NCBI GenBank assembly: GCA_001771535.1
Contig: MEUB01000017.1
Span: 1 to 64,000 of the forward strand
Source of the DNA: a candidate division WOR-1 bacterium RIFOXYB2_FULL_37_13
GTDB lineage: Bacteria; Margulisbacteria; WOR-1; XYC2-FULL-46-14; XYC2-FULL-37-10
DNA length: 64,000 nt
Direction of reading: 5' to 3'
Below the pieces are notes generated by a model, which had not been told where the DNA came from, ran no database searches, and saw only the letters and a program-made list of their open reading frames with translations. This document shows, piece by piece, positions 14,152 to 36,450 of the stretch; within the stretch, counting starts at the first letter, position 1, and every line of letters starts with the position of its first letter. The position numbers and the translations under genes were made by a program.

Positions 14152-17100
14152 ATGACAATTAAATCGACAATGGAAATTCAAGGTGCTTCTAGAGTAGCTT
14201 TTTCTCCACGAAGCGCTATCAATCTACAATCCTTTCCTCTTTTGGGTAGGGTTCTTTCTTTTGCAAAAAATTGCGCCATGTATGGCTTCCCAGATTATGA
14301 CCGCCTATTTTCGGATCCATCTTTTTTCTCTACTGAAGTTGCAAAGACAAGTCATTTAAAAGAAGAAGCTATTGATCCACTACTCAGACAAGGTGCGGGT
14401 TTAAAGCAATGCATTAAAGAGCTTGGAACAAACAGCGTAGAAGAAATTAGAAGAGAAAAAATGGTCGGAAGGTTTGGGCGTGGCAGGTTTAAGGCTCTTG
14501 TTATTTTGATGGATAATATTGGCAGTTCACTTTATGAGGTCAGAAGCAAAGTGGCTAACAGTATTGGTAGTTTTGTCAGATTTTATGGAGAAAACAATAT
14601 TCCTGTTGAACTTGGGGAAGAAAAGAGCAATGAATTTGGATTTCAAAAAGGAACAAGGGTATCTCTTTCTGCTCCTTTAAGTGAGGATACTGTTTCAGAA
14701 ATGGTAGCAGATGTTCATCATGCTTTTAGATTTGTAAAAGATGTCAGCGTTAAAGTAAATAATCAACTTGTGAATGAGCCAGGAAAGTATCAAAGCTTGA
14801 GGAGTGAACAAGAAAAGCAGATCAAAGGAACCGTTGATATCGCAATAACAAGGGAGGGGTTTTTGGTCGCGGATGATGGGGGAGGGATGGATAGAAAAGA
14901 TTTGGTTGAGAGAATTTTAACTGTTGGGAATTCTTCTGGCAAGGTAAGTAATGGTTATAACGATGCGGTGCAGGCTCCTAATTTATATTATTCCACAGAT
15001 ATTGACTCTGAGAATCCAAGCAAACCCAAAAAAGGAAGAGTCAGCATTTTAATGTGTGGCATTGAAATGCAGGGGGTTGAAATAGAAGGAGTGAATATTA
15101 AGCGTTATTCTGGGTATGAGCTTGGGACGGGGTTTAAACTTGATTTATCAAAAGAGGAAGTAATAATCGGGCAGGAAGAAGCGACTCGTATTGCTGGAAT
15201 TGTTGTTGATATTTTAAAAATGGAAGGGAGTCGCAAATGGGCGATTTTAAACAGCTTAATGAAAGCCATAGATAAACTTCAATTTGAAAATGGGGAGAAA
15301 GAGATTTTAATAAGAACGATAAGCGCTGAAGCTAAAAATGTTTCTGCCGAGGAAAATAAAGGAGAGATCTTATTTGTTCCAAATGAAGAAGGGTTTACTG
15401 CTTTATCGACTGATAGAAAAAAACTTTATGTGGATTCTCGATTGATAAACGAATTTGTGATAGCAGATGCAAGCCTTACCGCTTGTCCCAAGGAAAGCTA
15501 TAGAAGCGATGAGGGTTGTACAGCATTTTGGGGAAGATTTGAAACATCTGTCGTAGCGGTTGAAGTTGGCAAAAATATAGTTGTAAACGAAGCTTATCGC
15601 GAGAATCTTCTTCTGCTTAATTTGAGATTTAATTTTCATGATGGGTATTTGGAGAAGAGGAGTGAGAGGCTCCGGTTTTTTATGCCGTGGGAGGGGGAGG
15701 CTTGTGCCACATCCGCAGGTTTGCCTGCGATGGAAACAGCGTTAGGACAAGAGAGAATGGGAGAAGTAAAGCAAGCGGAAAAAACTGAAAGATCAGCATT
15801 TGATACTTTTTTACATGGCATAGAAGATGCAAAAGATAGAATTGCGGCACGGCTTTATTTTGATGTGTCGGGGTATACCGAGGCAAGCAGAGATAAAATC
15901 TCTGTTGCCATTGCAAGAAGAAATGCTTTATTGCAAGCTACAGGAGAAAGGGTCCCGTTAAATAAAGCTTTGTTCGATTGTGAAAGCTTTTTATTTGAAC
16001 ATCAAAATTTTCAAACTTATATTTTCGGAAAAAGAATCCTTTTTTCTGTTACATGGGGGGGCAGAGAAAAAGATAAATTGTTTAAGATTTTGCATGGAAA
16101 GCCTGTGTTGCTTGGTGAATTTGAGAGATTAGAAGAAGTATTTGTATTTGGGGAGGATGTAGTTGCTTTTTGTTCAACAGGAAAACAGCCTGACTCTCCA
16201 CTAGCTCTTCATGTAAAAAAAAGGAGTAGCCAATTCGTAAAAAGCTCGCTTGAATTTAATCATGACGTCGAAATTTATTGTAGCAAAAGAAAAATGTTTG
16301 TATTGGAGGGTAGATATAGCCATGGAAGTAAAACAATCTTTTCTGTTGATGCGAGAACATATTCAGAAAAAAAAGCAATTGTTTCTTTTGATGAAATAAT
16401 ATCAAAAGATTTCTATGACGGGAGCTCTCTTATTGTTGTTAAAAGGGAGGGGAAAATTGAAATATGGGAAGTGGATAATTTAGGAAATATTGTGCAAATT
16501 CCAACAAAAAAACTAACCGTTCAAAACTACACATTGATTTATGCTTGTAGACGCAATGGAAAACTATATTCACTTGTTAAAAATAAAAAAAATCAACATT
16601 TTCTTTTAATTGATGGGAGCATAAAACGGCCTCTACCTGTTGATCTTTGTAATCGCGTTTTTTTTGATGATAAAGGCGTTTGTTACTTTCTTGGACATGA
16701 AAATGTGTCCAATGAACAAAAACTTTTTATGGTTTCTGAACACCAAACAGCAACAGCTATTCCTTTAGAGATAGGCTCTTTAAGCGAATTTAGTGTTGAA
16801 AAAGGATTAATTATAGTTAGTAGCGGTAGAGGAGATATTGCTTCGATTGATGGCAAATCAAAAAAAACAGAAATGATAACTTCTTATTCTCATTCGAGCA
16901 TAGAAAGCAGTAGATATTTTGCTTTCTTTAGTCGCAATCATGACATAGAAAGGAATTTACTTGTTACTTTTGATGATGATATTAACACAATTCCGTTGAT
17001 CTCACGCCACGAAGAAGAAGTAATTATATTCCGAAACCAAGCCAGCAGAGTAGCTCATTTTAGGTCTTTGCCTATAGAGGGATTATCTATACCACAAAAA

Positions 17101-19560
17101 CAATTATGGTTATCTTCCTACGAAGAACAAGCCTCTTATGAAAAGCGCAGGACCGAAATGCTATCTCGCATCGCCGCAGGAGATATTGTAGAAAGTCATA
17201 ATCTGATTTTAGCTTCTTATATTCCAGCGTCAGCTATTGAATTGTTAGGAGATGAAACTATCGCAAGAATGGAAGCAAGGCTTTCTACAACAGGAAGAGA
17301 TCTTTTTAGTTTTCAAGAGCTATACCTTAGTTTTATTGAAGATTTGTGGCTTGCAAGCGATGGAAATATTGCGCAAGATAGATTTAGGCAAGTCGTTTCA
17401 CGATGGGATGAATTGGTCTCATCTTATGCAGGAGATTTTGAAGAACTTCAGCAACTTGCTCAATCTTTCAAAGAACAAAATCTTATCGAATATTTACATG
17501 ATGAAGGAGCGATTCCAGCAAACCAAAATATAAAGGAAAGCGTTGAGTTTTTCACAGACCCGAACTTGAAATATTCTGCGGAAGCTTCCGCGCTATCAAG
17601 CCGTCTAAAAAGCGGAGAGCTTCTTTGGAGCACTCCTGCATCTCATTCGTTAGCATTTTATCGTTGGGCGGGGTTTGCGTATCAAGGCTGGTCAGAAAAT
17701 ACAAAATTGATGCATGAAAAGTTGTTAGCAAAATATAATGCAATCCCAAATAAGAGTCCTATGCAAAAAGCTATCGAAGGGGATGTTGTGCAGGATTTAA
17801 AGCCAGATATTTATATAAGAGAATTTGTTCAAAACAGCCATGATGCAGGCGCGACCGAAGTTAAAATATCAACTTATACAAGAGAAATAAAAGATGATCT
17901 TTATCATTTTACAGCCTATGCGGACAACGGATGTGGTGCAACAGATTCCGATGTAAGGGAAGGGCTTCTTAATTTTGGAGGATCGAAAAAAAGAAAAAGC
18001 ACAAAGGCTCCTTCTGGCAGAAAAGAGATCGGGTGTGACGGCATTGGATTTAAAAGCGTTTATAACGATGCAGATATTGTTGTTGTAAGGACAACCTCTG
18101 GAGATGGAAGAGTATCTGAAGTTAAGACTTTTAAAAGAAGCAAAAAAGGTGAGCCTCTTGATATTGTGATTTCTGAATATTGCGAGAAAAAGACGCAAAA
18201 GGGCGTTACAGGATTTGAAGTTCATGTTGGAAAAAGAGTAGGAAAAAAGAGTGAAACTTCTGCTAATGCGTTAAGAATAGCCCTAAGAAACATGATGCTT
18301 GGATTTAGAATTAAAGAATATGTAGGGCTTATGGATCCTGAAGTACTGCGCATTGATTATAACGGTGAAACAATAAATGAGCCTGTTTTAGCAAGAGAAG
18401 AGTATGCTTTTTCTGACGGTGGCGCATATTCATTGCTTGAGGTTTCATCCACAAGTTCCGCAACAAGAGTTGCGCAAAATAGATTGATTGTAAATAGAAA
18501 GAAAAAACATCTTGTTGATAAATATTCCCCAAATAGTTTAAAGCGATATGTTGAAAATGATGTGTTTCAACTAGGAGAAGATGAGGATTTGACAACGCCG
18601 CGCAATAATCCGATGAGAAGCGAAAAAAAGATTGCGAGCAGATTTATATATCTTGCTGTAAGAAAGGCGCTAAAGAATGCCTTTGAAACAGGAGAAACAA
18701 TAGAAGGGATTGTCCCCGATTATTTATATAGCCAACATGAAGATATGTGCCTTACTAATTTGGAAAAAGCAATTACTCCAGAGATTCGAGATGACGCAGG
18801 CAAATTAAATTCTGGAAACGCGCACGAAGTTAATTTTAGTAAGTATTTGGACGATGTTGATAATCTTGGTTTGCTTATGAGTCTTGTTGAAGTTGAAGAT
18901 GAGCAAGGGAAAAGAGTCAGTTTGCAAGGCGTGAGAAATGCGGTTGCCGCATTATCAAAAGACGAAGACTCTCCTGATGTTTTGAATAGTCCATTGATAG
19001 GAGAAAGATATAGAGAAAGAATAAGGGCTGCGGTTATAGAAAGAAAAACACTCATTTCAGGAAGTGATTCTTCAAATAGGGAATCGGTTGCTTCTTTGTC
19101 GGAAGAACTAAAAGCTTACGCGAAGTTTGTACTTGAATTATACAATGGCATTGGCGTTCCTGTGGGAGTTAAGTTCTTTAGAAATACGGGAGAAACAAGC
19201 GAGATGAGGTTGGCAGATTTTACGGCCAGGACTGTTGATTTTAGGGAGGAGGCGGTTAGCGGTCAAGGAGCTAGGTTGCAAGGAGCTTTGGCTCTCAGGG
19301 ATTCGGGTTTAATTCCGAAAGCTATGCAACGATGGGATGGTAATTTTTCGAGGGAAGAGAGAGATACGTTGTCTCAAGCATATGGAACTTTTTACGAAGT
19401 TGGAGAAGATGCCGCTCATGAGCTTAAGCATCAAAGCTATGTAAGGCATGGACAAATAGAGCTTAACAGCCATGGTGCAACTTTTAGAAAAGATGTTATC
19501 GCAAGCATAGATTCTGCGATAATACGCAAATACAATCCCTTATCACGGCCGCTTAACTAG
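14152..19560 (+). CDS. Giant double-GHKL ATPase with C-terminal HExxH metalloprotease signature (copy 1)
   Basis: An 1802-aa protein of no family I can name, homologous along its length to the protein at 30095. The C-terminal GHKL module is canonical: N-box E1224...N1228...D1231 (REFVQNSHDAGA), D1258-N-G-x-G1262 (ADNGCGA) and G1294-x-x-G-x-G1299 (GCDGIGFKS). An N-terminal module also looks GHKL-like but is out of order: E90...N94, then GRFGRGR (106-112), GTRVSL (168-173) and only then DDGGGM (241-246). Residues about 600-980 are strand-rich repeats, possibly a beta-propeller. The end has HELKH (1756-1760) and HGATF (1774-1778), the SprT-like HExxH...HGxxF spacing. No signal peptide or membrane span. 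An ATP-driven clamp coupled to proteolysis is my inference only. Confidence 0.85.
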   Translation: MTIKSTMEIQGASRVAFSPRSAINLQSFPLLGRVLSFAKNCAMYGFPDYDRLFSDPSFFSTEVAKTSHLKEEAIDPLLRQGAGLKQCIKELGTNSVEEIRREKMVGRFGRGRFKALVILMDNIGSSLYEVRSKVANSIGSFVRFYGENNIPVELGEEKSNEFGFQKGTRVSLSAPLSEDTVSEMVADVHHAFRFVKDVSVKVNNQLVNEPGKYQSLRSEQEKQIKGTVDIAITREGFLVADDGGGMDRKDLVERILTVGNSSGKVSNGYNDAVQAPNLYYSTDIDSENPSKPKKGRVSILMCGIEMQGVEIEGVNIKRYSGYELGTGFKLDLSKEEVIIGQEEATRIAGIVVDILKMEGSRKWAILNSLMKAIDKLQFENGEKEILIRTISAEAKNVSAEENKGEILFVPNEEGFTALSTDRKKLYVDSRLINEFVIADASLTACPKESYRSDEGCTAFWGRFETSVVAVEVGKNIVVNEAYRENLLLLNLRFNFHDGYLEKRSERLRFFMPWEGEACATSAGLPAMETALGQERMGEVKQAEKTERSAFDTFLHGIEDAKDRIAARLYFDVSGYTEASRDKISVAIARRNALLQATGERVPLNKALFDCESFLFEHQNFQTYIFGKRILFSVTWGGREKDKLFKILHGKPVLLGEFERLEEVFVFGEDVVAFCSTGKQPDSPLALHVKKRSSQFVKSSLEFNHDVEIYCSKRKMFVLEGRYSHGSKTIFSVDARTYSEKKAIVSFDEIISKDFYDGSSLIVVKREGKIEIWEVDNLGNIVQIPTKKLTVQNYTLIYACRRNGKLYSLVKNKKNQHFLLIDGSIKRPLPVDLCNRVFFDDKGVCYFLGHENVSNEQKLFMVSEHQTATAIPLEIGSLSEFSVEKGLIIVSSGRGDIASIDGKSKKTEMITSYSHSSIESSRYFAFFSRNHDIERNLLVTFDDDINTIPLISRHEEEVIIFRNQASRVAHFRSLPIEGLSIPQKQLWLSSYEEQASYEKRRTEMLSRIAAGDIVESHNLILASYIPASAIELLGDETIARMEARLSTTGRDLFSFQELYLSFIEDLWLASDGNIAQDRFRQVVSRWDELVSSYAGDFEELQQLAQSFKEQNLIEYLHDEGAIPANQNIKESVEFFTDPNLKYSAEASALSSRLKSGELLWSTPASHSLAFYRWAGFAYQGWSENTKLMHEKLLAKYNAIPNKSPMQKAIEGDVVQDLKPDIYIREFVQNSHDAGATEVKISTYTREIKDDLYHFTAYADNGCGATDSDVREGLLNFGGSKKRKSTKAPSGRKEIGCDGIGFKSVYNDADIVVVRTTSGDGRVSEVKTFKRSKKGEPLDIVISEYCEKKTQKGVTGFEVHVGKRVGKKSETSANALRIALRNMMLGFRIKEYVGLMDPEVLRIDYNGETINEPVLAREEYAFSDGGAYSLLEVSSTSSATRVAQNRLIVNRKKKHLVDKYSPNSLKRYVENDVFQLGEDEDLTTPRNNPMRSEKKIASRFIYLAVRKALKNAFETGETIEGIVPDYLYSQHEDMCLTNLEKAITPEIRDDAGKLNSGNAHEVNFSKYLDDVDNLGLLMSLVEVEDEQGKRVSLQGVRNAVAALSKDEDSPDVLNSPLIGERYRERIRAAVIERKTLISGSDSSNRESVASLSEELKAYAKFVLELYNGIGVPVGVKFFRNTGETSEMRLADFTARTVDFREEAVSGQGARLQGALALRDSGLIPKAMQRWDGNFSREERDTLSQAYGTFYEVGEDAAHELKHQSYVRHGQIELNSHGATFRKDVIASIDSAIIRKYNPLSRPLN

Positions 19561-30094: not shown

Positions 30095-33000
30095 ATGACA
30101 TCAATCGGCGCCAAAATGAAAGAGGTAGTTTCTTCTTTTCACAGCTTTGGAAGAAAAGAATCTAATGTTACAGCATTTTCCCCAATCTTTGGAAGAATTA
30201 TCCCTTTTGCCATGGATTGTGCTTCACGATCGCCTGAATTTTGTGCCTCTTTGTTTAAGCCGAATAATCTTCAAAAAGAACTTTTGAGGACAAAAGATAT
30301 GCGGGTTGTTGATTGGGAGTCTTTTTTAAGGCAGGGAGCCAAGCCGGAACAGTTTGCAAAAGAGCTTATTGTGAACGGACTTGAGGCTGTAAGGGGCATA
30401 AAGATTGTTGGAATGTATGGGATGGGAAGACTCATGTCATTAAGATATGTAAAAGGGGTTTTAAATGCTTTTCTTGAAGTTACGACAAAAATTACTTCTG
30501 ACATGGGACGAGTTATTAGGTTTTTTAGCATGGAAGAAGAAGGGATCAAAGATGTTTCGGTAGAATTAAGGGAAGCCAACGACGATATGGTTGAATTTTC
30601 TCATGGGACCAGAGTTGAATTGAGGAGCAGCCTCATTATTAACATAAACGATAAAATTTTAGAAGGAATTAGGAATGCATTCAGGTTTGTAATGGATGCC
30701 AACGTTCCCGTCAATTCTGATAGGGCTAATAAACCCGAAAAGTGGAAAAGCTTAAGACATGGTGAGATAAACAGAGAAATAAAGGGGAATGTTGAGGTGT
30801 TGGTTTATGGAGATACGTTTTGCGTGAAAGATGATGGCCCTGGGATGGGGGCGGAGAGAGCCGTTAAGGGATATTTGGGTGTTGCAAAATCTGAAGGGAG
30901 TTTGCAGCGTGAATATCGGGACGATATACAGGAAGCGGATATTTATTACGCAAAGGACTTTTCTGAAATAGATGCGAATACCAGCCGCAAAAGCAGAGTC
31001 AGTTTTTTGATGTGCGGGGTTGAGATTATTGGAATAGAGGTTGAAGGGGTAAATGTTGAGGGAAATTTGGGAGTCGAGCTTGGAACGGGGATTAGGCCTC
31101 CTCAGTCAAAAGATAAAATTAAATTAGGGGCAGAAGAAGTTAAGAGGATAAACGGTTTAATTAAAGAGGTGTTGAAGATAGAAGGGTATCGCAAATGGAG
31201 CATATTAAACAGTTTGGTTGCGGCGTTAGAATCAAACGAGCTTTTGTTTGAGGCTGGAGAAAGAGAGGCGTTACTCAAATTTGCATGTGTGGAGGCGAAG
31301 GAAGTTCCTCATAATGAAAGCAGGGGAGAAGCCCTTTTTCTGCCGAATGAAAAAGGCTTTATAGAGCTGAAAGCGTCAGGAAAAAAGGTTTATGTGAAAA
31401 GTGAATTGCTGGCAGAGTTTAAGGTAAAAGACGCGGGGATAATAACCTGTGACAGCCGACTGTATGAAAGCAAAAGAGGATATACTATCCACTGGGCGCA
31501 GTTTGATAGCGATGAGGTATGGGTTGAAGTTGGTAAGAACGTGATAATAAACAGGAGATACGAAAACAATAAGTTAATGTTGAATTTGCGTGCAGGGTTT
31601 TATATTGGATACGGAGAAAGGGAAGAGCCTAAATTTAAATTGTTATGGCCGTGGGAGATTAAAGCTAAAGAAAAGACAAGGGAGTCAGCTCAAAAGAGTG
31701 ATACAAAGGGTCTTGCCCCTGCTTCTGCGCATGAGAAGACAAAAGCAAAAAGGGTTAAAAGCTTTTTGGCAGGGCTGAAGGGATCTGACAGGATGGCGGC
31801 AGTTGCTTATTTTGCGATATCCGGGCGTACATTAGAAAGCGTAGAAGCCTTAACATCTGCGATTGCAAGAAGGGATGAATTTCATAAGAGATTTGGAGAG
31901 AGAATAGGCTTGAAAGAGATATTATATAGAACTCGTTCATTGAATGACCTAAAGGCTGTTGATAGTTACTTTATTAGTTTGGGAGGAAGACAATTTTTGC
32001 AGATTAAAGATTGTTATAACAGGCACTCCTTATATGAAATTGTCGGCAGACAAGTGGAATTGGTGGCAGAATTTAAAAACGAAGCTGAACTGGCAATTAA
32101 TGAATTTGACCCATATTTGTTTAATAGCGGAGGAAGCGATTTATTTCTGTTTGTGGTTTCTTGTTATAACTTACCAAATGGGAAAAGGCATCAAAAGGTT
32201 TTCCTGAAAGATAAAACAGGATATAGGCAGCTTCCTGCTGATTTTGATGAAATTATAGGCGTTGAATTTTATGATGGGAAGATAATTTTAGCAGAAGTAG
32301 ACGACAAATATAACACTAAAAAAATCCGGCTTTGGGAGATAGCCCAACATGAAGAAAGCCAATTACAACCAGCCTTACATTTGGAAGGGAGTTATAAATT
32401 TAATTTTTGCAATGGGAGCTCTTTGCTTTACGATAGAACAAAACACAGATTTTATGAAAAAAAAGTTGGGGAGAAAGAAAAACCAATTAATGCTTTGATT
32501 TCCAAAAAGATTTCTAACGTTTTGCAGGTGCATAAAGGTGAGGATGGGTTTTTAATAATAAGAAATGATGAGCCTTCAATATTTATAAGAAATGACGGCC
32601 AAGCTGAAAATACGCCTGAAATAGGGCTGAATGGTGTATTTGATTCTGTTTCGTTTGTAGATGAATGCGGAAATTTTTGGCTTAATGATTATAAGCAGAA
32701 GAGCTTTTGGGTTAAAAGGGGAGGGCGCGCCTTTGAGCCAACCACGCAAGAAAAGTTTGCTTCTGTTGAATTGCGCCAAAAAGCATCTTCTAAGACATAT
32801 TTTAATTATATTATGGATGATAGCGAAGATGTTGATGTTTACTATTTGAAGGAAGGAACATATCCTGTAATTTCAAGATGCGGAAAACAGCAGCATCCCA
32901 ACCATTATGATTTAGACATTTTATTGGAAAAAAGATTAAGCTTAGGCCGAATCCCAAGCAGCCTTCCAACTCAGCAACCCTGGTTTTCTTCCAGCGAAGA

Positions 33001-35437
33001 AAGGCTTGCCTATGAAGCCCGCCGCCATGAAATGATATGCCGTCTTGCGGCAGGAGATTATTCAGAGGAGGTAAAAAAAGTTGAGCTCTTTGGATATTTA
33101 AACCGACAGGCAGTTCAAAGATTGGGATCAGAGTTGATTGCTCAAATTGAAAAAAAATTTGAAACAAAAATCGGTGGAACATTTAGATATCAAGAAGCAT
33201 ATTTATCTTTTATAGAAAAATTATGGGATGCGAGCGAAGGGGAAATAGATGCCGATCGGTTTAGAAGAATTGTTTCAAGGTGGAATAGCTTCGTTGGCAT
33301 TTTAGAAGCAGATCTTGATGAACTTGAAAGGTTGTTAAGCTATTTTGACAAAACAAGGCTTTACAGCTATCTCCATGATGGAGAAATGCTTCCTGATGAT
33401 CCTGAAATAAAAGGATTTGTTCATATCTTTACATTAGAAAACATAAGAGAATCTCAAATGGCTGATTCTTTTGCAATGGCAAAACTAATGCCGACAAGAA
33501 AAATTACGTTTAGAATTGATGATCCTTACGACCTAGCTTTTCATTATTGGGCGGGGCTTTACAACCCTGGATGGTCAAAAAACAGAAGGCAACATCTTGA
33601 ATTGTTGGAAAAGTATAAGGGCGGAGTTTATAGGGGGGAACCCATTGAACATAAGACTTTTAGAGATTATGTGAGAGGGGAAGTTAAAGGCCAGGATTTA
33701 AAGGGGGATATTTGCGGGAGGGAGTTTATCCAAAACGCGATAGACGCGGGAGCGAAACATATGGATATAACAACTTATTCAAAAAAGAGGGAGGATGGAT
33801 ATATATACCATTTTGCGGCTTATCGTGATGACGGGAAAGGATTGTCCTCTTCAGGGGTTAAAGAGCTGCTGCTTAATTTAGGAGTATCAGACAAAAAAAG
33901 CGAGGCCGCGGACGCGAAAAAAAATATAGGGAAAAACGGGATAGGATTTGAAAGTTCGTTAAATGACAACGATCTCGTTATGGTCAGGACATCAAACGGA
34001 GACGGAACTTTTACGGAAGTTGAACTTGTCGGAAATAATTTGGACGCGCGGGTTTTAAGATATGTTGAAGGATTGACAGACAAGAGCATGCGCGGACTTG
34101 AGGTTCATGTCGGCAAAAAAATTGGTAAAGAGGAAGAAGAAGAGCAAAATAAGATAAAAACAATATTTAGGGAAATGATATTGGGTTTTAGGCTTAAGGA
34201 TATGGCAGGATTAGTTGATCCGTCTGTTTTAAGTGTTTCTTATAGAGGGGCTCCAATCGCAGAGAGAATTTTAGATAGGGAGAGCGTTGTTTTGGAGGGG
34301 AAAGGACGATATTCATTACTTAAAGTAGGGAAAGAGAGAGAGGCGCGAGTTGTTCAGAATGGATTGATAGTAAATCATTCCAAAGAGAAATATTTAAGAT
34401 ATTTTCCCGAGTTTTTAAAAAAATATGTCGAAGATTGCGCCTTTGAGATTGGGGAGGATGAAGAGTTGACGAGGGGCAGGGACGATGTGATGGAAGATGA
34501 ACGAGTTGTCGCAGGGATATTTATACAGCTTGCAATGCGGAAAGCAATAAAAGAATATCTTCAAACAGGAGAAGAATTTGGGAATCTGCCAAAAGATTAT
34601 CTCTATTCACAGCATCTTGAACTGGGGAACGGAAATTTGGAGGGATATATACCTGAAGGAATCGAAGAAGATAAAGAGAGGATAAATATTGGGAATATAT
34701 GTGATGTAGGATTAACGAAATATCTTGGAAGGGAAGATGATTTGACAATGCTCATGACATTGGTTAAGTTAAAAGACGGAGAAGGAAACGCGATTTATTT
34801 GCAAGCTATTCGAGATGCAATAGCCGATGTGTCAAAGGGAGGAAAAGAGATTCCAAGATTTTTTAGTAGTCCCATAATATCAGCTTTTTTTAGGGAAAAA
34901 ATAGAGAGCGCCGTTAAAAAGAGAATAGACTATCTTGCCGCGCATCGTTCTGAAGGCAAAAGAAAAGCTGTTGCTGATCTGCCTGAGCAACTTAGATTGT
35001 TTGCTGACACAATGTTAGATATCTATACAGCCATGGGACTTACTGACCCTGAAGTTGATTTTTATTCAAATCCTGATGAGGTGAGGATCGCCACTTATGG
35101 ACTAAATCATTTTAGGTTTAGAATAGAAGCAATTGAAGAAAGAGCAAGAAAATTAAAGAGAGGATTAGAATTAAAGAAGCAGGGACAACTTGCGAAAATT
35201 GCAATAAATGGCGAAAAGTTAAATGATAGAAATATTGTCTCTTCTGTGGCGGAGGCAATAGATGTGTTTTCATATTTAATAGAAGAGCCCGGCATTCATG
35301 AAGGGGTTCATGATGTGTTTGGAAGTTCTGAAGGGTGGAGCCATGGCAGCAGATTTAAAGAAAGGGCGATAGGCTTTGTTGATGTTATGCTAAAAAATGG
35401 CTATAATCCTCTTTTGCCGCGGGATATGCTACAATAG
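30095..35437 (+). CDS. Giant double-GHKL ATPase with C-terminal HExxH metalloprotease signature (copy 2)
   Basis: A 1780-aa homologue of the protein at 14152, colinear throughout. C-terminal GHKL motifs: E1210...N1214...D1217 (REFIQNAIDAGA), DDGKG (1245-1249) and GKNGIGF (1279-1285). N-terminal permuted module: E90...N94, GMYGMGR (106-112), GTRVEL (171-176) and DDGPGM (246-251). The middle is strand-rich; the segment before the second ATPase (IVSRWNSF..., HYWAGL) is well conserved between copies. The end has HEGVH (1735-1739) and HGSRF (1750-1754). All candidate catalytic residues are kept in both copies, arguing that both are functional rather than one decaying. galT begins 5 bp after the stop. 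Confidence 0.85.
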   Translation: MTSIGAKMKEVVSSFHSFGRKESNVTAFSPIFGRIIPFAMDCASRSPEFCASLFKPNNLQKELLRTKDMRVVDWESFLRQGAKPEQFAKELIVNGLEAVRGIKIVGMYGMGRLMSLRYVKGVLNAFLEVTTKITSDMGRVIRFFSMEEEGIKDVSVELREANDDMVEFSHGTRVELRSSLIININDKILEGIRNAFRFVMDANVPVNSDRANKPEKWKSLRHGEINREIKGNVEVLVYGDTFCVKDDGPGMGAERAVKGYLGVAKSEGSLQREYRDDIQEADIYYAKDFSEIDANTSRKSRVSFLMCGVEIIGIEVEGVNVEGNLGVELGTGIRPPQSKDKIKLGAEEVKRINGLIKEVLKIEGYRKWSILNSLVAALESNELLFEAGEREALLKFACVEAKEVPHNESRGEALFLPNEKGFIELKASGKKVYVKSELLAEFKVKDAGIITCDSRLYESKRGYTIHWAQFDSDEVWVEVGKNVIINRRYENNKLMLNLRAGFYIGYGEREEPKFKLLWPWEIKAKEKTRESAQKSDTKGLAPASAHEKTKAKRVKSFLAGLKGSDRMAAVAYFAISGRTLESVEALTSAIARRDEFHKRFGERIGLKEILYRTRSLNDLKAVDSYFISLGGRQFLQIKDCYNRHSLYEIVGRQVELVAEFKNEAELAINEFDPYLFNSGGSDLFLFVVSCYNLPNGKRHQKVFLKDKTGYRQLPADFDEIIGVEFYDGKIILAEVDDKYNTKKIRLWEIAQHEESQLQPALHLEGSYKFNFCNGSSLLYDRTKHRFYEKKVGEKEKPINALISKKISNVLQVHKGEDGFLIIRNDEPSIFIRNDGQAENTPEIGLNGVFDSVSFVDECGNFWLNDYKQKSFWVKRGGRAFEPTTQEKFASVELRQKASSKTYFNYIMDDSEDVDVYYLKEGTYPVISRCGKQQHPNHYDLDILLEKRLSLGRIPSSLPTQQPWFSSSEERLAYEARRHEMICRLAAGDYSEEVKKVELFGYLNRQAVQRLGSELIAQIEKKFETKIGGTFRYQEAYLSFIEKLWDASEGEIDADRFRRIVSRWNSFVGILEADLDELERLLSYFDKTRLYSYLHDGEMLPDDPEIKGFVHIFTLENIRESQMADSFAMAKLMPTRKITFRIDDPYDLAFHYWAGLYNPGWSKNRRQHLELLEKYKGGVYRGEPIEHKTFRDYVRGEVKGQDLKGDICGREFIQNAIDAGAKHMDITTYSKKREDGYIYHFAAYRDDGKGLSSSGVKELLLNLGVSDKKSEAADAKKNIGKNGIGFESSLNDNDLVMVRTSNGDGTFTEVELVGNNLDARVLRYVEGLTDKSMRGLEVHVGKKIGKEEEEEQNKIKTIFREMILGFRLKDMAGLVDPSVLSVSYRGAPIAERILDRESVVLEGKGRYSLLKVGKEREARVVQNGLIVNHSKEKYLRYFPEFLKKYVEDCAFEIGEDEELTRGRDDVMEDERVVAGIFIQLAMRKAIKEYLQTGEEFGNLPKDYLYSQHLELGNGNLEGYIPEGIEEDKERINIGNICDVGLTKYLGREDDLTMLMTLVKLKDGEGNAIYLQAIRDAIADVSKGGKEIPRFFSSPIISAFFREKIESAVKKRIDYLAAHRSEGKRKAVADLPEQLRLFADTMLDIYTAMGLTDPEVDFYSNPDEVRIATYGLNHFRFRIEAIEERARKLKRGLELKKQGQLAKIAINGEKLNDRNIVSSVAEAIDVFSYLIEEPGIHEGVHDVFGSSEGWSHGSRFKERAIGFVDVMLKNGYNPLLPRDMLQ

Positions 35438-35442
35438 TTGCT

Positions 35443-36450
35443 GTGCCAGAGCTTAGACAAAATCCAGCGACAAAAGAGTGGGTTATAATTGCAACCGAGC
35501 GCGCTAGGCGCCCTGAAGATTTTCCCCAAAAACCGCCTGAAATACAAACCCCCGAGGAGATAGAAAAATGTCCTTTTTGCGAAGGGCATGAAAGTGAGAC
35601 CCCACCTGAGATATTTGCCTATCGCGAGTATGGGACAGCTCCAAATTCTCCTGGCTGGTGGATAAGAGTTATTCCAAATAAATTTGCCGCGCTTATCCGT
35701 GACGGTTTGCCAAAAAGAGAAAAGATTGACCATTTTTTCCGCCGGATGGATGGGATTGGAGAACATGAAGTCCTGATAGAACATCCAAAGCATGATTTTA
35801 CAATAGCTACAATGGAAGAAAAACAGGTCGAGGAGATTTTTTTGGCGTATCGTGAAAGATATTTGGATTTGTGCAAAAACCCGAAATTTGAGCTTGTAAT
35901 GGTATTTAAAAATCATGGACAGGCAGCGGGCACATCTGTTAGGCATCCTCATTCACAGATTATAGCGAGTCCTGTGACTCCCCAGCATGTGCGCCACAGA
36001 CTTGAAGAGGCAATGAGATATTTTGATGATAATGGTGTATGCGTGTATTGCGCAATGATCGAAGAAGAGCTTAAAATGAAAGAGCGGTTAGTCTTGGAAA
36101 CGGACAATTTTGTAGCTTTTGAACCGTTTGCTTCCCGTTCCCCATTTGAAACGTTAATACTGCCAAAAAAGCACAGTTCCTCTTTTCAATTTATAACTTC
36201 CGACGAAACAAAGGAAATGGCATATGTTACAAAGGCCATACTTTCCAAACTTTATAAATCACTAAAAGACCCTGATTATAATTATGTTATTCATTCTTCT
36301 CCGTGCCACGAAAAGGAGCTGGAATATTATCACTGGCATATGCAAATTTTGCCAAGGATAACAGCGCTTGCCGGGTTTGAACTTGGATCCGGCATTTATA
36401 TTAATACCGTGATCCCGGAAAAAGCCGCGGATTTTCTAAGAAATGCCTAA
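35443..36450 (+). CDS. galT: Galactose-1-phosphate uridylyltransferase
   Basis: A 335-aa Leloir-pathway enzyme that swaps UMP between UDP-glucose and galactose-1-P. The first zinc pair is CPFCEGHE; the active-site histidine triad is in NHGQAAGTSVRHPHSQ; HWHMQILPR gives further ligands. GTG is the start, 7 nt after a TACAAT box that overlaps the stop of the giant gene, so it is probably transcribed separately and without a leader. In deep bacteria such enzymes may act on other sugar phosphates (GalT/ADP-glucose phosphorylase-like). It overlaps the next gene by 8 bp. Confidence 0.9.
   Translation: MPELRQNPATKEWVIIATERARRPEDFPQKPPEIQTPEEIEKCPFCEGHESETPPEIFAYREYGTAPNSPGWWIRVIPNKFAALIRDGLPKREKIDHFFRRMDGIGEHEVLIEHPKHDFTIATMEEKQVEEIFLAYRERYLDLCKNPKFELVMVFKNHGQAAGTSVRHPHSQIIASPVTPQHVRHRLEEAMRYFDDNGVCVYCAMIEEELKMKERLVLETDNFVAFEPFASRSPFETLILPKKHSSSFQFITSDETKEMAYVTKAILSKLYKSLKDPDYNYVIHSSPCHEKELEYYHWHMQILPRITALAGFELGSGIYINTVIPEKAADFLRNA

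Follow-up and report, generated by a model that had tools for sequence, protein, structure and literature searches.

What do the two giant open reading frames of this locus encode, and what might such proteins do? The window, the whole stretch of 64,000 nucleotides analysed here, lies on contig C17 of a candidate division WOR-1 genome (1.79 Mb in 71 contigs). A first-pass annotation had described two homologous proteins of 1802 and 1780 residues, each with a GHKL ATPase towards the C-terminus, a GHKL-like region at the N-terminus, a strand-rich middle and a metalloprotease signature. Both reading frames are present:

14152–19560, + strand: copy A, giant putative ATPase-protease family protein (1802 residues; relatives found)
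30095–35437, + strand: copy B, giant putative ATPase-protease family protein (1780 residues)

Copies A and B are full-length paralogues with 36% identity over nearly their whole length. Complete members of the family share one order of domains: an N-terminal GHKL is followed by a middle that is rich in beta strands where it could be resolved, then by a helical region and a canonical GHKL of the HSP90 type, and an HExxH...H site lies at the C-terminus. This order and the rearrangement within the N-terminal GHKL are well supported, and the function is proposed conditionally. The architecture was unmatched in Pfam, NCBIfam, PADLOC, PHROGs and the PDB, and no characterised family of the same architecture was found, which agrees with the earlier statement that no such family had been described. 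The family is apparently rare and undescribed.

The C-terminal half and the middle region

The features of these regions in the two copies are as follows:

16009–16821, + strand: strand-rich middle of copy A, probable beta-propeller (residues ~620–890; model and fold matches, repeats in a relative)
17104–17706, + strand: helical region ahead of the second GHKL, copy A (residues ~985–1185; model)
17761–18351, + strand: canonical C-terminal GHKL, copy A (residues ~1204–1400), followed by an HSP90/MORC-like second domain
19165–19557, + strand: zincin-like domain, copy A (residues ~1672–1802)
19417–19431, + strand: HELKH putative zinc-site motif, copy A (H1756, E1757, H1760)
19471–19473, + strand: candidate third zinc ligand H1774, copy A (invariant)
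33677–34264, + strand: canonical C-terminal GHKL, copy B
35297–35311, + strand: HEGVH putative zinc-site motif, copy B
35342–35344, + strand: candidate third zinc ligand H1750, copy B

The C-terminal GHKL matched PF13589 above the curated cut-off in three members, with E-values of 2e-11 and 2e-10 in the window copies, and its profile matched HSP90 chains at 2e-10. Alignment to HtpG gave a single piece (E 9e-14) in which the N-box, G1 and G2 motifs follow the canonical order. Residues E1224, N1228, a lysine, G1294, G1297 and G1299 are conserved without exception in the ten proteins. Several distant members have a degraded G1 motif, so that ATP may be bound by the domain but not hydrolysed. Residues 980–1802 were modelled by AlphaFold with a mean pLDDT of 78, and the best PDB matches of this half were HtpG, TRAP1 and HSP90, followed by MORC3 and MORC4, over a span that exceeds the GHKL domain. 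The ‘LTRxR’ stretch of this module resembles, by eye, the arginine stretch of the catalytic loop in the HSP90 middle domain, and R1484 is invariant; the ‘SK/SR’ stretch of the N-terminal module aligned weakly to the ‘NISR’ of HtpG (E 0.39).

Residues 620–890 of copy A were predicted to be all-beta with moderate confidence. Among PDB folds, the N-half model matched mostly beta-propellers, starting from 6e-7 and including the prolyl-oligopeptidase type, TolB, sortilin and WD40, and the middle is probably a propeller, as had been suggested. The giant relative P0003 contains nine repeats of ~46 residues at the middle position. A profile built from these repeats fails to find copies A and B, and for the window proteins the propeller therefore rests on the fold match. 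The middle is shorter in the members of 1623 and 1599 residues.

All nine complete members carry an HExxH motif at the corresponding position downstream of the second GHKL. The alignment of the C-terminal region contained four invariant columns out of 280, corresponding to the H, E and H of the motif and a downstream H, which is the candidate third zinc ligand and lies at a variable spacing among members. The four residues are the sole invariant positions of the region, which would suit a catalytic site, and this domain may bind zinc and cleave protein. In the model a small sheet precedes the confidently predicted helix that carries the HELKH motif of copy A. The zincin region matched no Pfam family and no solved PDB structure. 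An HExxH with a further H, often within SHG or THG, is taken by us to resemble SprT/Wss1-type metallopeptidases at the level of the motif; in contrast to these enzymes the spacing of the third ligand varies, and none of the nine members matched the SprT/Wss1 Pfam models at E-values up to 3.

The N-terminal GHKL and the order of its motifs

The corresponding features of the N-terminal module are:

14329–15471, + strand: N-terminal HSP90-type module of copy A, GHKL with transposed segment (residues ~60–440; profile comparison and model)
14389–14451, + strand: N-box helix, copy A (E90 and N94 invariant)
14461–14490, + strand: G2 loop VGRFGRGRF, copy A, directly after the N-box (G106, G109 and G111 invariant)
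14776–14946, + strand: transposed segment, copy A (residues ~209–265), comprising a beta hairpin, the G1 motif DDGGGM (241–246) and a helix
30332–30394, + strand: N-box helix, copy B (E90, N94)
30410–30427, + strand: G2 loop GMYGMG, copy B
30830–30847, + strand: transposed G1 motif DDGPGM, copy B

In GHKL proteins from HSP90 to MutL and the histidine kinases the motifs occur in the order N-box, G1, G2. The N-terminal module departs from this order although every motif is present and invariant: the order is N-box, G2, G1 in all ten proteins, where the N-box leads directly into the G2 loop and the DxGxGM motif of G1 follows 127–168 residues later. The G1 segment and its hairpin come after all other parts of the ATPase domain, whereas in known GHKL folds they lie between the N-box and G2. 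As read from the sequence, this is the transposition of one segment and not a circular permutation. Residues E90, N94, G106, G109, G111, G167, D241, G243, G245 and M246 are invariant in the ten proteins, which come from two phyla, and because ten residues of the ATP site are invariant across ten proteins the likeness to GHKL domains is not due to chance. The GHKL-like region of the first-pass annotation is therefore a real GHKL with invariant ATP-site residues, but its rearranged motif order had been missed.

The profile comparisons located the same segment. In the native order Pfam returned only fragments of the N-terminal GHKL, below the cut-off, and when the G1 segment was moved back the scores rose in five of five proteins, the best reaching 34 bits and covering most of PF02518. 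A profile search of the PDB matched positions 82–210 of the module to chain positions 114–230 of TRAP1, and positions 212–262 to 48–98 of HtpG. When the native module was compared with the HtpG alignment using hhalign, query positions 37–54 fell on HtpG 27–44, 57–177 on 116–231 and 160–219 on 44–104. The reordered module gave one alignment spanning HtpG 27–216 with an E-value of 8e-16, compared to 4.6e-7 for the best native piece and comparable to that of the canonical C-terminal module. The N-terminal module is thus homologous to the GHKL domain once order is disregarded. The rearranged order was absent from every library searched.

An unguided scan of approximately 1000 block swaps per protein placed the best cut just past the N-box and ahead of the G1 hairpin in ten of ten proteins. 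The best-swap index was 136–152 (188 in G089) in all of the N-terminal domains and mostly at the far end in the C-terminal domains. As a control, the canonical C-terminal GHKLs of the family also gained 6–17 bits, in most cases because the best swap displaced a handful of residues at the end of the domain. How much a protein gains was therefore discarded as evidence, and the two kinds of domain differ only in the position of the best swap.

In the N-half model the pLDDT by block was mostly above 70 over residues 30–440, with confident secondary structure across much of the domain, and the G1 hairpin was modelled at ~85–91. Among the 50 Foldseek matches listed for the N-half there was no GHKL, and propellers and other folds appeared instead. 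This absence speaks neither for nor against the domain, because a sequential aligner handles a transposed domain poorly. It is highly improbable that the rearrangement is illusory, with G1- and G2-like motifs arising by chance in an unrelated domain: the swap scan alone is weak, its best of 1000 swaps lifting canonical GHKLs too, and the model was read at the level of secondary structure, but the G1 hairpin is modelled at high confidence, three shuffled HtpG matches collapse into one on reordering, and both the split against solved HSP90s and the Pfam scores agree.

Distribution, descent and genomic neighbourhoods

Members were found in three of 74 genomes of the same phylum. The window genome has three copies, a second genome of its family has two (1770 and 1599 residues) and a more distant genome of the phylum has two (2102 and 1623 residues). 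The third copy of the window genome is located on contig C20, which also bears rpoB and ribosomal protein genes, and is split into two overlapping reading frames of 924 and 954 residues. These lie at L006:5329–10904 on the minus strand and overlap by 64 bases. The two halves of the protein occupy different frames, which would fit gene fission, a frameshift or an assembly error alike.

A search across phyla, as the first-pass annotation had recommended, recovered members in one second phylum, where three of the 44 genomes searched contained them: one MAG labelled Chlamydiae and two further genomes of its phylum. Some of these relatives form part of proteins that are larger again, which had been missed previously. 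The Chlamydiae-labelled MAG contains an open frame of at least 3239 residues that runs off the contig end (L056:7064–16780), with membrane-spanning-like stretches located after the peptidase site. An open frame of 13,907 residues on this contig, in G074, was dropped because the contig begins with 32 kb of masked N; the supported length is the value of at least 3239 residues. A second member lies within a reading frame of at least 3026 residues (L070:3–9080, minus strand). Its N-terminus carries a hydrophobic stretch, and another HExxH, HELRH at residue 2860, occurs further downstream. The third is a divergent fragment of 1923 residues (L071:1–5769, minus strand) with both GHKLs, ~1500 residues apart, which ends at the contig end, ahead of any peptidase site.

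No family member was found in protein searches of plasmid and phage records, or when viral contigs were scanned using two alignments. Samples of 395 and 396 genomes from two further phyla gave zero matches in a search with no positive control inside them. Most near relatives of the window genome are without the family, so it is not essential housekeeping.

In a tree of nine proteins copy B paired with the 1770-residue protein of the sister genome and copy A was adjacent, so that these genes appear to have duplicated before the two genera diverged. Comparison of copy B with its nearest relative over 1692 codons gave a dN/dS of ~0.19, with dS near saturation. These are ancient paralogues maintained by purifying selection.

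Copy A is flanked by genes for a PilT-like ATPase and a ComM-like protein, and copy B by those for a DUF4143 ATPase and galT. Other loci, with neighbours named by sequence inspection, carry malate dehydrogenase and nusG, rpsB/tsf and rpoN, or hemC/hemB. No conserved neighbourhood or common partner was found across the member loci examined. Copy B ends 5 bases ahead of galT on the same strand (window 35437–35443), and because of this short gap the two may be co-transcribed. In the sister genome the orthologue of copy B is followed by an rpoN-like gene instead of galT.

Proposed role and relation to known GHKL proteins

HSP90 and MORC proteins are ATP-gated clamps. By analogy with these, the family is proposed to form a single-chain, ATP-gated protein-processing machine, a chaperone-protease in which a clamp captures and cleaves proteins; we assign this reading a probability of roughly 0.45. 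Two HSP90/MORC-type clamp modules would flank the probable beta-propeller, which would bind the target protein. Binding of ATP would then join the two GHKL domains, or two chains, so that the clamp shuts around the protein, which would be passed to the C-terminal zinc peptidase and cut. The reading is supported by the invariance of the ATP sites, the HSP90 and MORC folds, the alignment of both modules to HtpG, the zincin invariants, the propeller folds and purifying selection. All N-terminal ATP-site motifs, the C-terminal N-box and G2, and the HExxH...H site are conserved; that the proteins hydrolyse ATP, close as a clamp, bind zinc and cut protein, and what kind of substrate they act on, is what we infer. 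The mostly housekeeping neighbourhoods are compatible with a role in cellular upkeep. The first-pass annotation had offered protein quality control, removal of protein from DNA and defence as conceivable roles.

Defence is unlikely. Here the family would be large stand-alone GHKL defence proteins similar to Tiamat (TmtA) or to restriction enzymes that bear a GHKL, in which the propeller senses an invader, the ATPases act as a switch and the peptidase cuts a protein of the cell or of a phage. At the domain level, copy A matches TmtA, BbrUII-type restriction enzymes and a sacsin-type domain through its C-terminal GHKL, and the distribution is patchy with a variable copy number. Against this, inspection of the genes around the copies examined turned up no defence genes, PADLOC models matched none of four other members, the mobile-element searches were empty and the paralogues are ancient and constrained; neither neighbourhoods nor whole-length defence models lent support. 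It is similarly doubtful that these are surface-attached or exported proteins acting on neighbouring cells. Giant reading frames of Omnitrophota have been discussed as adhesion or predation factors (PMC10066038), and relatives of the window proteins occur within proteins of at least 3000 residues, one hydrophobic at its N-terminus and another with the membrane-spanning-like stretches. By inspection, however, the window proteins and their nearest relatives have no signal-like N-terminus, and two ATP sites imply a location with ATP. The earlier assignment to the cytoplasm fits the window proteins, but the relative at L070 is the one with the hydrophobic N-terminal stretch. An ATP-switched scaffold or regulator with a structural or silent HExxH site is likewise unlikely: it would accommodate the degraded C-terminal G1 and the want of a matching protease family, but the restriction of invariance to four zincin-site residues is the pattern that a catalytic site would give.

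The chaperone-protease reading can be taken one step further, to a naturally transposed Bergerat (GHKL) fold that would serve as one of the two halves of an HSP90-type clamp within a single chain and pass proteins to a zinc peptidase in the same polypeptide, and this combined proposal is tentative. Against the chaperone-protease reading stand the degraded C-terminal G1 of several distant members, the zincin region that matched neither Pfam nor the PDB, and the absence of the family from most near relatives; nor are we aware of an ATPase of the HSP90 type that hands its substrate to a protease within one chain. Each kind of domain has been described before, whereas the way they are combined and the transposed GHKL were absent from the family libraries, the PDB and the open-access literature searched, which contained no description of a GHKL domain with another segment order. 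If confirmed, the ATP site would survive relocation of the G1 segment, providing a natural test of which connections matter, and a GHKL clamp with a peptidase would be a second design of ATP-dependent proteolysis beside the AAA+ proteases, a chaperone-protease built on GHKL in place of AAA+ motors. Both the transposed ATP site and the clamp-peptidase are directly testable with purified domains.

Among characterised proteins, HSP90, HtpG and TRAP1 resemble the family in that both modules align with the HtpG N-terminal domain and the C-half match extends past the GHKL. They differ in that the family has two modules per chain, one of them transposed, together with the probable propeller and peptidase-like domain; whole-protein HSP90 models matched ~100–150 residues with bit scores far below the cut-off. 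MORC ATPases likewise have a GHKL followed by a further domain, and fold matches to the MORC3 and MORC4 ATPase cassettes were obtained, but the family has two GHKLs and a peptidase-like end and gave no match to a CW zinc finger. Sacsin is also a giant chain with several HSP90-like modules, and the C-terminal GHKL matched the model of its ATP-binding domain at 8.8e-11, below that model's cut-off. Sacsin has ubiquitin-like, DnaJ and HEPN domains (PMC3710099), none of which gave a Pfam match in the family proteins, whereas the family has the probable propeller, the zincin site and one rearranged GHKL. The likeness of copy A to TmtA and to BbrUII/HgiDII-type restriction enzymes consists of weak, GHKL-only matches that cover ~100 residues, score far below any cut-off that is set and lack a defence context; for whole-length TmtA ~90 residues were matched of models 1302–1486 positions long.

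Matches of 550–640 residues within the same phylum resemble MutL and HtpG and were set aside, as were loci L057, L058, L060 and L061, which encode HtpG or other GHKL proteins outside the family. Two of these, L057:8918–11485 and L060:695–3379, encode related proteins of 855–894 residues in Billgrantia and an Ignavibacteria MAG, in which a GHKL of canonical order follows a long N-terminal region.
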